Shown: positions 54,214 to 58,001 of the stretch, piece by piece | Position numbering within the stretch: position 1 is the first letter of the stretch | Layout of the letters: each line of letters opens with the position of its first letter | Assembly: GCF_000695795.1 (NCBI RefSeq) | Contig: NZ_JNCA01000013.1 | Location: 62,001-126,000 of the forward strand | From: Flavobacterium seoulense | GTDB lineage: Bacteria > Bacteroidota > Bacteroidia > Flavobacteriales > Flavobacteriaceae | Length of the DNA stretch: 64,000 nucleotides | Direction of reading: 5' to 3' | Notes under the pieces: generated by a model | What the model was told of the DNA's origin: nothing | The model's database searches: none | Seen by the model: the letters and a program-made list of their open reading frames with translations, nothing else | Translations under genes and position numbers: made by a program

Positions 54214-55950
54214 ATGCAATTATTTGACTGGATTGTACTTATAATCACTTTACTTTTTATCGTAATTTATGGTACCTGGAAAACGAAAGGAAGTAAAAAT
54301 GTAGAAGATTTTATTCTGGGTAGTAATGAAACGCCCTGGCATACTGTAGGACTTTCGGTAATGGCAACTCAGGCCAGTGCCATTACTTTTCTTTCTACTC
54401 CCGGACAGGCCTATCATGACGGAATGGGATTTGTGCAATTCTATTTTGGACTCCCAATAGCCATGATTGTCATTTGCCTCACTTTTATTCCAATATATCA
54501 TAAATACAAAGTTTTTACAGCTTATGAATATCTTGAAAAACGTTTTGACTTAAAAACACGTTCACTGGCTGCGATTCTTTTTTTGTTCCAGAGAGGTCTT
54601 GGAACAGGATTAACCATTTATGCTCCGGCAATTATTTTATCGGCATTATTGGGTTGGAATCTAACCTATATGAACATTATAATCGGAATTCTGGTTATTT
54701 TTTATACAGTTTCAGGAGGTACTAAAGCCGTTAACGTTACTCAGAAACAGCAAATGTTTGTCATCATGTCGGGGATGTTTATTACCTTTTTTCTAATTCT
54801 GCATTTTCTTCCCAATGATATGACTTTTAGTAATGCACTCCATATTGCTGGTGCCAATGGAAAAATGAATATCGTTGATTTTTCTACTGATCCTGAAGAA
54901 AAATATACTCTTTGGAGCGGAATAACAGGTGGTTTTTTTCTGGCTTTAGCCTATTTTGGAACCGATCAATCGCAGGTAGGCCGATATTTATCAGGAAAAT
55001 CGGTTCGTGAAAGTCAGATGGGATTAATCATGAATGGACTTTTAAAAGTTCCGATGCAATTTTTTATTTTATTGACAGGAGTTATGGTTTTTGTTTTTTT
55101 CCAATTCAATCCAGTTCCGTTGAATTTTAATCCTAACAATAAACTAACTATTGAAAAATCAAAATATAAGGACGAATATCATGCATTAGAGAAAAAGTTA
55201 GAAACGCTTTCAGAAGATAAAAAAGTTATCAATCTTTTATATATCGATCAGCTGAATCAGGATTATGACAATCCTATTCTCAGAAAAGAATTAGTTGCCA
55301 TTTCGACCAAAGAAAAAGACCTAAGAGATCATGCCAAAGAAATTATCTTAAAAGCCGATAATGACAGTGAAACTAATGATAAAGATTATGTTTTCTTTCA
55401 TTTCATTTTGAATTACTTACCCAAAGGTTTGATTGGTTTATTGCTGGCTGTGATTATTTCGGCAGCTATGTCATCAACCGCTTCCGGACTTAATGCATTG
55501 GCTTCTACCACGGCAATTGATATTTATAAACGAAATTTAAAAGAAGAAAAAACAGAAAAACATTATCTAAATGCTACTAAGTTTTTTACTTTCTTCTGGG
55601 GGATTGTAGCCATTCTTTTTGCCTGTATTGGAACATTATTCGAAAACTTAATCCAGTTAGTCAACATCATTGGGTCTATATTTTACGGAACTGTTTTAGG
55701 TATTTTCTTAGTTGGATTCTATATAAAATTCATTAAAGCCAAAGCTATTTTTTACAGTGCTTTTATTACGCAATTAACTATTTTTATTATTTATTATTTT
55801 TCTAACTTTATTTATCCAAGCGGAGAAGAAAAATTAGGTTATTTATGGCTGAATTTCATCGGAGCTTTGATGACTATTATTCTTTCGGCTTTACTTCAGG
55901 CAACTATTTTCAAGAATGAAAAAAATACAACAATGCTTTTAGAAGAATGA
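54214..55950 (+). CDS. Sodium/solute symporter (SSS) with cytosolic insertion
   Basis: 578 residues with about 13 membrane segments. SSS motifs: FILGSNETPWHTVGLSVMATQASAITFLSTPGQAYHDG, YLEKRFDLKTRSLAA, LALAYFGTDQSQVGRYLSGKS and AVIISAAMSSTASGLNALASTTAIDIYKR. Between about residues 305 and 395 a charged, coiled-coil-like insertion (KSKYKDEYHALEKKLETLSEDKK) breaks the usual helix order. Probably carries an amino-sugar or sugar product made by the upstream PIG-L enzyme; the substrate is inferred. A terminator follows. Confidence 0.9.
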   Translation: MQLFDWIVLIITLLFIVIYGTWKTKGSKNVEDFILGSNETPWHTVGLSVMATQASAITFLSTPGQAYHDGMGFVQFYFGLPIAMIVICLTFIPIYHKYKVFTAYEYLEKRFDLKTRSLAAILFLFQRGLGTGLTIYAPAIILSALLGWNLTYMNIIIGILVIFYTVSGGTKAVNVTQKQQMFVIMSGMFITFFLILHFLPNDMTFSNALHIAGANGKMNIVDFSTDPEEKYTLWSGITGGFFLALAYFGTDQSQVGRYLSGKSVRESQMGLIMNGLLKVPMQFFILLTGVMVFVFFQFNPVPLNFNPNNKLTIEKSKYKDEYHALEKKLETLSEDKKVINLLYIDQLNQDYDNPILRKELVAISTKEKDLRDHAKEIILKADNDSETNDKDYVFFHFILNYLPKGLIGLLLAVIISAAMSSTASGLNALASTTAIDIYKRNLKEEKTEKHYLNATKFFTFFWGIVAILFACIGTLFENLIQLVNIIGSIFYGTVLGIFLVGFYIKFIKAKAIFYSAFITQLTIFIIYYFSNFIYPSGEEKLGYLWLNFIGALMTIILSALLQATIFKNEKNTTMLLEE

Positions 55951-55982
55951 TTATATAGAAATATAAAACAATTCACATACAA

Positions 55983-56010
55983 AAGCCTCTACTACTATAG
56001 AGGCTTACTT
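55983..56010 (+). terminator. Terminator after the second SSS gene
   Basis: AAGCCTCTA pairs with TAGAGGCTT around a 6-nt loop, followed by ACTTATTT. Confidence 0.65.
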
Positions 56011-56034
56011 ATTTAAAAACTTTAAACAAATATA

Positions 56035-56238
56035 ATGAAGGGATTTATTAAAATCACAGATACAGGAGAGCAGGAATACTATATCAATATTGACTATATT
56101 ATACAATTTACAACTACTAATGAAAATCAAGAAGGAAACACAATCATTGATATAAAATATGGAGAAAGAGTTGCTACAATACAAACAAATTGTACAACTG
56201 AAGAAGTATTACTCATGATAGCTTCGTCAAATAAATAG
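56035..56238 (+). CDS. Small hypothetical protein
   Basis: 67 residues: MKGFIKITDTGEQEYYINID, then an acidic central stretch and KYGERVATIQT. It has the beta-hairpin look of small FlbD-like proteins (short strands ending with a helix EEVLLMIASS), but the match is weak. It sits at the edge of the accessory patch, after the SSS terminator. Function unknown. Confidence 0.6.
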   Translation: MKGFIKITDTGEQEYYINIDYIIQFTTTNENQEGNTIIDIKYGERVATIQTNCTTEEVLLMIASSNK

Positions 56239-56395
56239 CGAATCGAAATTTAGTAAAAGCCAATGCCTCTAAAGTCGATTTTAGAATTAACTACAACTAC
56301 ACCATCGCCCCTCAAAAACCAAATTAAAAAAAGCACAATTTGCTCTTGAAGAACTAAAAGGCTTGCTTTATAAACATGGTATTGTTGTGGAGTAA
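56239..56395 (+). pseudogene. Gene remnant with frameshift
   Basis: Two frames read as protein across a poly-A run near 56325. The first reads NLVKANASKVDFRINYNYTI and then APQKPN to a stop. The second, in another frame, reads KKAQFALEELKGLLYKHGIV and ends VE-stop at 56395. Joined, they look like the C-terminus of one lost protein with a frameshift in the A-rich stretch. No start and no family recognised. It makes up most of a 321-bp gap before the nuclease. Confidence 0.4.
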
Positions 56396-56478
56396 ATTAG
56401 TTTTCAAAATATTTTTTTGTAAGAATATTTTAACATATTTGAAAACAAATAATACGCATTAATAATTAATAAAACTTG

Positions 56479-56523
56479 CGCATAACATGCCGTTTTGGAA
56501 CAAAACATGTCAAATTTATGCGT
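56479..56523. repeat. Nested inverted repeat upstream of the nuclease cassette
   Basis: CGCATAA (56479-56485) pairs with TTATGCG (56517-56523). Inside, CATG and TTTTG face CAAAACATG with a 3-nt bulge. With GCATAAC at 56480-56486 and GTTAGGC at 56534-56540, the 61-bp block has the rough shape of an attC site. One core base deviates from RYYYAAC. Confidence 0.5.
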
Positions 56524-56533
56524 GTATAAACTA

Positions 56534-56550
56534 GTTAGGCGCAACCATAA
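56534..56550. repeat. Left boundary core of cassette-like element
   Basis: GTTAGGCGCAACCATAA. The GTTAGGC part fits the integron core GTTRRRY. The same 17-nt block recurs as GTTACAAACAACCATAA at 57458-57474, 924 bp downstream, with 13 of 17 bases identical. Confidence 0.6.
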
Positions 56551-56559
56551 AAGCAACTT

Positions 56560-57324
56560 ATGATAACAACAGAAAGATTAGAACAACTAATTGATAAAGG
56601 TCAAGCAGTCTTAAGAACGCACGTTCCAAATCCTCCAAATATGATTGGCTTTACTACTTTAAACGGTGGGCAATTTACAGCATGGCAAACTCAGACATTA
56701 AGTTATTTACAATCAAATCTTTCTTCAGAAAACCAATATATTCTTTCTTTCAGAGCCAATGTAAAAAGAGGTTATACTAGTGATGTCAACAAAGGAATTG
56801 GAATATTACGATCATTAATCGAAGATATTAATTTAGGTCTTTTTGAAAATAATACTGTTGAAGAAAATTTTAATCCTACTAATTCTTTGCTAACTATTCT
56901 CGAGAGATTTCATTTAGTAGTCAGACAACTTCGGAACCGATATGATTCAAGAAACACTCTTGACGTTAACGATGAGTATGATGTTCAAAACTTACTACAT
57001 TCTCTTTTAATTCTCCACTTTGATGATATACGAGCTGAAGAATGGACTCCAAGTTATGCGGGTAAAAGTAGTAGAATGGATTTTTTATTAAAAGATTATA
57101 AAATTATAATCGAGGTAAAAAAAACTAGAAGTAATCTAAGAGCTAAAGAAGTTGGTTCGCAACTAATTGAAGATATTGCGAGATATAAAACTCATCCAGA
57201 TTGTGAAACTTTAATATGCTTTGTTTATGATCCTGAAGGTTTAGTTGGAAATCCTAGAGGATTAGAAAATGACCTAAGTAGTGATGATAATAATTTAAGA
57301 GTTAGAGTGTATATTCGACCTTAA
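56560..57324 (+). CDS. PD-(D/E)XK nuclease, DpnII/MboI type
   Basis: 254 residues. The N-terminal 130 residues are helical (ending VRQLRNRYDSR). The C-terminal half is a DpnII/MboI-type nuclease domain: LLHSLLILHFDDIRAEEWTP, then SYAGKSSRMDFLL with the active-site Asp, and KIIIEVKKTR with the Glu-x-Lys. The domain ends SQLIEDIARYKTHPDCETLI and YDPEGLVGNPRG. This is a metal-dependent DNA or RNA nuclease. No methyltransferase, antitoxin or other partner is beside it, and it sits alone between integron-like sites. The start ATG is 19 bp after the left core. Confidence 0.88.
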   Translation: MITTERLEQLIDKGQAVLRTHVPNPPNMIGFTTLNGGQFTAWQTQTLSYLQSNLSSENQYILSFRANVKRGYTSDVNKGIGILRSLIEDINLGLFENNTVEENFNPTNSLLTILERFHLVVRQLRNRYDSRNTLDVNDEYDVQNLLHSLLILHFDDIRAEEWTPSYAGKSSRMDFLLKDYKIIIEVKKTRSNLRAKEVGSQLIEDIARYKTHPDCETLICFVYDPEGLVGNPRGLENDLSSDDNNLRVRVYIRP

Positions 57325-57331
57325 TGGCAGC

Positions 57332-57464
57332 GCCTAACAGCGGTTTTGCGCCATTGCTGAATTTGTTGCAAAAGTTCATTTTTATTTCTTAATTTAGTTT
57401 TTGTGTAGCCGAGCGAACTCAGTTTCAATTTCCGCAGCGGACGCAAAGCCACAGGACGTTACAA
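57332..57464. other. attC-like recombination site
   Basis: GCCTAAC at 57332-57338 (fits RYYYAAC) begins 7 bp after the nuclease stop; GTTACAA at 57458-57464 ends the block. GCGGTTTTGCGC just inside faces ACGCAAAGCCAC at 57441-57452, giving the R''-L''...L'-R' layout of integron attC sites, 133 bp long. GCCTAAC is the exact complement of GTTAGGC at the left edge of the same gene, as expected when a cassette closes into a circle. Confidence 0.55.
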
Positions 57465-57509
57465 ACAACCATAAGTAATATATAATCTTCAAAAAATCTC
57501 AACAATATA

Positions 57510-57538
57510 AACTCCGCAGCTGCGGAGTTTTATTTTTT
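57510..57538. terminator. Perfect palindrome with T-run
   Basis: AACTCCGC-AGCT-GCGGAGTT, a perfect 20-bp palindrome, then TTATTTTTT. Terminator-like for transcripts leaving the nuclease cassette. Confidence 0.6.
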
Positions 57539-57600
57539 ACGCCACTCAAATCCCATAAATACTCATATAGTCCGTCAAGTCCGCAATCTAAGGCGATAAG

Positions 57601-57835
57601 CAAGTTGGAATTTGTAAAATATTCGAACTAAATTACATAGACCACCAAAGAAATTGCAAAAGTGCTTGAGCATTTTCAAACTGTCGTTGAGGAAATTGCA
57701 GAAGCCTTTGAGGAAGTTACAAAAGTACTTGAGGATTATCAAACTACCGTTGAGGAAATTACAAAAGCCTTAGAACATTGAGGAAATGTCTTTGAGGAAA
57801 TTGCAACAGAAGCATAGGAAACTGCATATAATACC
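57601..57835 (+). pseudogene. Eroded coiled-coil repeat ORF
   Basis: One frame reads KLEFVKYSN, stop, IT, stop, TTKEIAKVLEHFQTVVEEIA, EAFEEVTKVLEDYQTTVEEI, TKALEH, stop, GNVFEEIATEA, stop. Two repeat units of about 66 nt (KVLEHFQTVVEEIAEAFEEV and KVLEDYQTTVEEITKALE) are clear. Four in-frame stops of all three types show that it is no longer coding. No start is visible. Confidence 0.5.
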
Positions 57836-57890
57836 ATTTATATTTAAAAACTATTCTTATTATCTATTAGAATTGATGAACGTTATTAGT

Positions 57891-57987
57891 TTTTACACAG
57901 AGATAAGCAAAGCTAACACAGAGATTCACGAAGATTAAATTAACTTAGCGAATCTCTGTTTGATTTCCTCTGTGAATCTCTGTAAAA
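57891..57987. repeat. 97-bp imperfect palindrome of ACAGAGATT words
   Basis: TTTTACACAGAGAT...ACACAGAGATTCACGAAG is mirrored by CTTAGCGAATCTCTGT...CTCTGTGAATCTCTGTAAAA. Similar words occur in other intergenic tracts of the window. No frame. Confidence 0.55.
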
Positions 57988-58001
57988 TATAAATAAATTA
58001 A

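Follow-up and report, generated by a model that had tools for sequence, protein, structure and literature searches.

How did a nuclease gene framed by inverted cores come to resemble an integron cassette at a place where no integrase is present, and is the resemblance more than formal? The window, i.e. the whole 64,000-nucleotide stretch of Flavobacterium seoulense DNA that was analysed, very probably contains one integron cassette, consisting of the nuclease gene and its attC, which occupies a spare attI and was inserted by a recombinase encoded on another contig of the same genome (C9) or by one lost locally.

Anatomy of the window cassette

The features of the locus, in window coordinates, are as follows.

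55928..57999, no strand: block of ~2.07 kb (attI, cassette and flanks), which the closest relative compared (G005) lacks at the corresponding position
56247..56395, + strand: what is left of the 3' part of a pentapeptide-repeat gene that also precedes the attI on contig C21
56418..56534, + strand: attI site, identified by homology to the C21 and C9 copies, with the crossover between G56534 and T56535
56535..57458, + strand: integrated cassette, 924 bp, delimited by the pair GTTAGGCGC/GCGCCTAAC and by the right box of the attC
56560..57324, + strand: cassette gene, 254-aa nuclease of DpnII-MboI type (Pfam PF18742, PADLOC Aga_Helical-REase)
57330..57465, + strand: attC, with left box 57330-57338, arms and right box GTTACAA at 57458-57464; bottom-strand hairpin, modelled
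57459..57474, + strand: right flank of the insertion (former right half of attI, or cassette remnant), repeating GTTA-N4-CAACCATAA

The anatomy was observed directly and agrees with the sequence-only reading, which had placed inverted cores on both sides of the gene. GTTAGGC lies at 56534-56540, 19 nt 5' of the ATG (56560), and GCCTAAC at 57332-57338, 7 nt 3' of the stop codon (57322-57324); the reverse complementarity of the two ends is real and extends over 9 nt rather than 7 (GTTAGGCGC / GCGCCTAAC). The cassette carries a single gene, the DpnII/MboI-type nuclease, and an attC of 134 nt. The boundary word GTTA-N4-CAACCATAA, said to recur 924 bp apart, has exactly two occurrences at that distance when the window and the whole genome are searched. 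Its GTTA part is the crossover site and the only part that is explained; the CAACCATAA part may be due to chance. The proposed inner arms are present and fold on the bottom strand, but the folding energy is no better than that of shuffled sequences (z 0.06), so that the nature of this single site was settled through its relatives, by covariation and not by energy.

Searches of the window alone were of limited value. An Rfam scan at gathering cut-offs revealed three tRNAs and nothing else. Scanning solely for matching ends plus a stem gave five matches on one strand and four on the other, missed the real site and yielded 1.7 matches per shuffled window (one strand); such a scan is unspecific because chance matches are too many. 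The cassette is identified by its matching ends in combination with homology to attC and attI. The absence of an integrase holds for the window (tblastn with two integrases, E 1e-3), but an intact one is located on contig C9 of the same genome. The description of the element as an integrase-less cassette is supported, with the qualifications that its flank is a copy of an attI and that the genome encodes an integrase elsewhere.

The attC family and its arrays

Plain DNA similarity, which involves no model and is thus not circular, connects the window attC to relatives at E values down to 1.1e-38. With the 161 bp around the site as query, 53/249 genomes of the genus matched at E 0.001 or better, many of the matches being short; they include two further copies in the source genome (C9 and C21) and tandem copies in genomes G270, G112 and G273. 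Copies recur every 500-700 bp across long distances and, in the stretch examined, lie between open reading frames. An attC covariance model built here (R1), the check that had been proposed, matches the window site at E 9.9e-28, a result that is partly circular as the window is one of the 50 training rows. The cassette interpretation would have been refuted by lack of an attC model match together with a nuclease always found between unrelated flanks at orthologous loci; this did not occur, since the model matches and the related nuclease of Flagellimonas oceanensis is likewise a cassette. Matches to the model are present in 203/249 Flavobacterium genomes.

The hairpin derived from fifty bottom-strand attCs comprises 21 pairs, a conserved C-A mismatch and unpaired bases at columns 19/132 and 25-27. 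Compensatory changes were observed in 12 of the 21 pairs, and 98.5% of cells were paired, compared with 89.6% after shuffling and 29-53% in slid versions of the structure; 0/500 shuffles were as high on any of five measures. As the structure was derived from the same sequences, the slid comparison is biased in its favour, and sequences that are related may surpass every shuffle on certain measures. In the C9 array, one cassette attC (L106:725-857) has a quite different body (GCTACTACAACGG...), indicating that attC sequence types mix within one array.

In integron cassettes, the first bases must complement the last bases before the cassette's own attC and not those of its neighbours. This pairing, at 8 nt or more, was observed in 115/125 cassettes, compared with 9.5 expected when right ends were shuffled among cassettes, and in 67/69 cassettes (3.1 expected) at loci that were chosen by their integrase and lie outside the attC-model training; the latter set counts only neighbouring sites that are separated by less than 3 kb and have both boxes identified. 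In the array of genome G112 own ends pair in 228/236 cassettes. The left and right boxes of the same attC match in just 11/141, as expected if the right box is part of the cassette that follows. Array orientation is equally regular. The 254 attC matches of G112, of which one is incomplete and another is truncated where a stretch ends, lie on one strand and extend from ~600 bp after the integrase across 177 kb. Around 20 integrase loci, 93 attCs were found downstream (186 kb) and none upstream (93 kb), all in the direction of the integrase, 12 weaker opposite-strand echoes of counted sites having been excluded beforehand. Three of the 20 loci have no attC match, and their contigs end 2156, 1139 and 131 bp past the gene. 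Locus L120 (contig C21 of genome G111) is an exception: its integrase-like frame is interrupted, and the attC matches are found on the other side of it, in the opposite orientation.

These data bear on the proposal that the element is a non-autonomous transposon with hairpin ends that merely resembles a cassette. Such an element would account for the repeated ends and for the 2.07 kb block missing from relatives, but not for ends that vary between cassettes yet match within each, nor for tandem, one-direction arrays beginning after an integrase, and we consider this explanation scarcely credible.

Among 153 cassettes picked by their matching ends (median length 560 bp), the longest frame of at least 60 aa runs forward in 136 and in reverse in 3, with none in 14. 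A Pfam scan of 110 of the 136 encoded proteins gave 32 families at E 1e-4; every family listed occurs in one or two members, which leaves at least about two thirds of the scanned proteins without a family. The matches include ParE, PemK, HepT-like, zeta toxin and GmrSD, and PADLOC returned 28 models, NucC included, each listed in one member. The minus strand of C9 (L106:2470-4677) carries a gene for a 735-aa prokaryotic Argonaute-like protein (PADLOC PprPIWI/pAgo), which is a cassette with 10-nt matching ends inside the integron of the source genome.

The integrase and the attI sites

The gene located directly before the arrays encodes a tyrosine recombinase. The C9 copy, intact and 345 aa long, is the sole match to the family in the source genome at E 1e-90 or better. 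The closest solved structures by sequence are XerA (5hxy; 200 bits), an archaeal Xer (189 bits) and IntI4 (180 bits), and the predicted fold is nearest to XerA, XerH and IntI4 (Z of 22.1, 19.3 and 18.9), other tyrosine recombinases reaching 17. The enzyme has its best sequence match in archaeal-type XerA and its nearest folds in XerA and bacterial XerH, and differs from both in adjoining cassette arrays and, in the main type, in an extra N-terminal domain of ~62 aa. This domain is predicted with a mean pLDDT of 87 and has no Pfam match over the cut-off and no significant Foldseek match, the best being the HARP domain of SMARCAL1 (E 0.41); its likeness to HARP is an assumption of ours that predates the structure search. 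Other shapes of the family include proteins of about 580 aa (G121) and 276 aa (G123).

Comparison with integron integrases reveals similarities and a difference. The C9 integrase is 26% identical to IntI1 over the shared part, and in the tree the family groups with IntI1, away from resident Xer proteins, with IntI1 as one long branch and sisterhood undecided. The IntI-specific insert is missing: IntI4 has 63 residues (180-242) where the flavobacterial integrases have 20 (profile positions 249-268), which explains why the IntI4 match is split in two pieces. The insert is reportedly necessary for activity, as held by Messier and Roy. All nine integrase proteins examined score 182-222 bits against TIGR02249, below its cut-off of 265, and NF040815 (site-specific tyrosine recombinase/integron integrase) is the best NCBIfam match for 8/9 (194-225 bits), its cut-off of 220 being reached by 4/9. 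TIGR02249 was discarded as an integron marker, since it matches in all 14 control genomes and so does not discriminate below its cut-off.

The window attI is ~91% identical over ~95-120 bp to the copies carried by C21 and by C9, of which the C9 copy adjoins the integrase, and 75% identical to DNA of genome G101 from the integrase stop codon onward. Three homologous copies were identified in the source genome, plus one weak 27-bp match. The C9 copy directly follows the intact integrase gene and is occupied by cassettes, one of which encodes the Argonaute, and the C21 copy carries a cassette with 10-nt matching ends and has no integrase nearby in the 18 kb examined. A fourth, less similar attI-like site on contig C10 also bears a cassette and lacks a nearby integrase in the stretches examined. 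Together, C21, C10 and the window provide at least two, and probably three, landing sites without a nearby integrase. In the family at large, the start of the first cassette was located by its matching end in 22/28 integrase loci, and the motif TATA-N-AC-N-AG|TT lies 93-105 nt after the integrase stop in 15 of these 22; at least two of the other seven starts, those at 223 nt and at 285 nt, seem to be coincidental.

The close attI copies also weigh on the possibility that a classical IntI integron inserted the cassette at a chance secondary, attG-like site, with the attI resemblance being incidental. The window cassette's right box, GTTAGGC, fits the classical GTTRRRY, and class 1 integrons are known to insert at attG according to the available text of PMC12901181. 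Nevertheless, none of 150 genomes, the source genome included, exceeds the TIGR02249 cut-off, and the left flank is ~91% identical to both an integrase-adjacent attI and a second copy; this origin is very unlikely.

A further question is whether the integrase acted from a distance. The window attI is homologous to the DNA beside the G101 integrase from about the stop codon of that gene onward, which suggests, as an inference from sequence comparison, that the window locus is a former full integron that has since lost its integrase. Identity with C21 extends over window positions 56247-56537 (87%; L107:7576-7868) and includes the end of the pentapeptide-repeat gene, which on C21 is open over 189 aa and matches pentapeptide repeats in Pfam (E 1e-23). 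Seven relatives were compared at the orthologous place: the flanks are 10 bp apart in G005, 32-100 bp in three others and 372 and 1310 bp in two, and the left flank is unmatched in one. Two repeats lie to the right of the cassette: degenerate tandem repeats of 21/42/63 nt at 57566-57827, also present downstream of the C21 attI (77-86% identical), and a 160-bp intergenic repeat at 57831-57990, 87% identical to a copy on C9 (L105:16440-16599).

It is a real possibility, if short of probable, that the spare attIs are relics, that insertion took place while an integrase adjoined the window attI and that no action in trans occurs now. This view overlaps with the preferred explanation, in which the source of the integrase stays open. 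The start of homology at the integrase stop codon is in its favour, as is the occurrence of at least one attC match in 64/100 genomes without integrase. Against it stand the intact 345-aa integrase and close attI copies in the same genome, and the two integrase-free attI copies that each carry a well-formed cassette.

In the preferred explanation, insertion by a C9-encoded or locally lost recombinase, the tyrosine recombinase would act on a cassette whose attC bottom strand it folds into a hairpin, would cut beside the conserved GTT and would insert the circular cassette into attI at the G56534/T56535 junction. On such a flavobacterial integron platform the integrase gene would come first, then attI ~100 nt after its stop and then the one-direction cassette array. 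The data show the anatomy, the homology, the logic of the arrays, the covariation and the co-occurrence of integrase and attCs; the recombination steps, use of the bottom strand, action in trans and local loss of the integrase are all inferred. No recombination assay supports them, the window has no integrase, and the integrase lacks an insert reputed to be necessary; genomes rich in attCs without integrase, genomes that have the integrase and no attC, the exception in G111 and a Chryseobacterium oryzae plasmid without attC, described below, also count against the explanation.

Distribution, passenger genes and relation to known systems

A candidate integrase was found in 149/249 Flavobacterium genomes (E < 1e-60), in several architectures that do not all have the N-terminal domain. 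Five or more attCs are present in 106 of these 149 genomes, compared with 19 of the 100 without integrase (Fisher 2e-16), and 10/149 have none. The E cut-off was our choice, and the genomes are not phylogenetically independent. Two genomes without an integrase below E 1e-60, G013 (L123) and G238 (L119), have at least 13 and 8 attC matches, respectively, and their cassettes sit at attI-like sites. Across the order, the attC model matches in 38/196 genomes, 25 of them outside the genus, and in 15/72 genera; the integrase, at E 1e-90 or better, is present in 45/196 genomes, and in some of them its N-terminal part is missing. The system is a native, widespread flavobacterial integron family and not a stray from Gammaproteobacteria.

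Full-length relatives of the integrase occur on plasmids of Chryseobacterium sp. SNU WT5 and C. oryzae. The SNU WT5 plasmid (NZ_CP041688.1; L217) combines the integrase with three attC matches (E 0.01 or better) and the attI motif, and thus the system can be plasmid-borne; this integron is of rainbow trout origin. No attC of the family was found in the 25 kb examined of the C. oryzae plasmid. DNA searches of plasmids gave no match with the window attC and only its own record with the Chryseobacterium site, and among phage records 26 have a partial integrase relative, none covering 80%.

The passenger nuclease matches PF18742 at E 5.5e-58 (195.2 bits, cut-off 27, domain criterion met) and PADLOC Aga_Helical-REase at E 8.8e-31, its catalytic half resembling the nuclease of Argonaute-associated systems; a role in defence is inferred and has not been shown. 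The closest homologue found, in F. araucananum, is 89% identical, is similar at the DNA level only between the ATG and a point shortly after the stop, and has a GTTAGGA box upstream and no attC match. A 65% identical relative in Flagellimonas oceanensis is itself a cassette: its two ends match each other over 10 nt, and the body of its attC is different. Most nuclease relatives are nevertheless not shown to be cassettes: after exclusion of 4/59 loci (L100-L103), cassette ends surround 3/55 (Flagellimonas, L047; Shewanella, L061; a deltaproteobacterial MAG, L064), which, with 0.5 expected and a shuffle maximum of 4, is weak as a set.

Sedentary chromosomal integrons of the Vibrio superintegron type share with the flavobacterial family an integrase, an attI, a one-direction array, attC hairpins and a cargo in which small genes without known function predominate, accompanied by toxin-antitoxin and defence-like genes. 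In sedentary chromosomal integrons integrase and array are usually divergent, in contrast with the flavobacterial ones, which share direction and whose integrase lacks the IntI insert and has the extra N-terminal domain. The classical end boxes have the consensus GTTRRRY / RYYYAAC. Flavobacterial ends match over ~10 nt and rarely fit GTTRRRY, a consensus also given in the available text of PMC12901181: only 1/245 right boxes of the G112 array conform, and this criterion is not met. The classical attC criterion (imperfect hairpin, conserved end boxes, unpaired bases) is met; the array criterion (one orientation, own ends matching) and that of an attI beside the integrase are met by the family, the window having a single cassette and an attI without adjoining integrase; and the criterion of the IntI-specific domain is not met. 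Given the missing insert and the poor fit to GTTRRRY, the family works like an integron and fails the tests that define IntI, and recombination has not been shown.

As far as the available portions of the integron literature go (PMC8618304, PMC9668308, PMC9024848, PMC8352920, PMC8138268, PMC2426708, PMC12901181, PMC12642874, PMC13148043), integrons have been reported, if seldom, from the phylum (Natural History of Integrons; archaeal integron paper), IntegronFinder 2.0 records for Bacteroidetes proper In0 elements and a single complete integron, that of Salinibacter, and Nemergut 2008 retained no integrase without the IntI-specific domain and still included the Bacteroidetes/Chlorobi group. 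No report of integrons in Flavobacterium was found in open-access full-text literature, subscription papers and preprints being outside the scope of the search. The family may have remained unnoticed because its integrase is without the domain by which integron integrases are usually defined.

Riemerella anatipestifer also belongs to the Flavobacteriales. Its capture of aph(3')-IVb is homology-free, the gene entering with a 140-bp 3' segment said to fold like an attC and, according to its authors, no integron lying near the insertion (PMC13148043, as far as its available text goes). A gene with an attC-like 3' segment in a host of the same order is common to both cases, and by this analogy we suggest, without any test, that a system of the flavobacterial-integron kind could lie behind the Riemerella capture. 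In a broader and rather doubtful proposal, Flavobacteria would have evolved or retained a second kind of integron, with a XerA-like integrase that has no IntI insert, perhaps carries a HARP-like N-terminal domain and reads attC hairpins; scattered attIs would share one integrase in trans, and this would be the missing machinery of Riemerella-type capture. If the integrase works, the additional domain would not be needed for integron recombination, a large cassette store would become visible, and it could be tested whether Flavobacteriales capture genes by this route.
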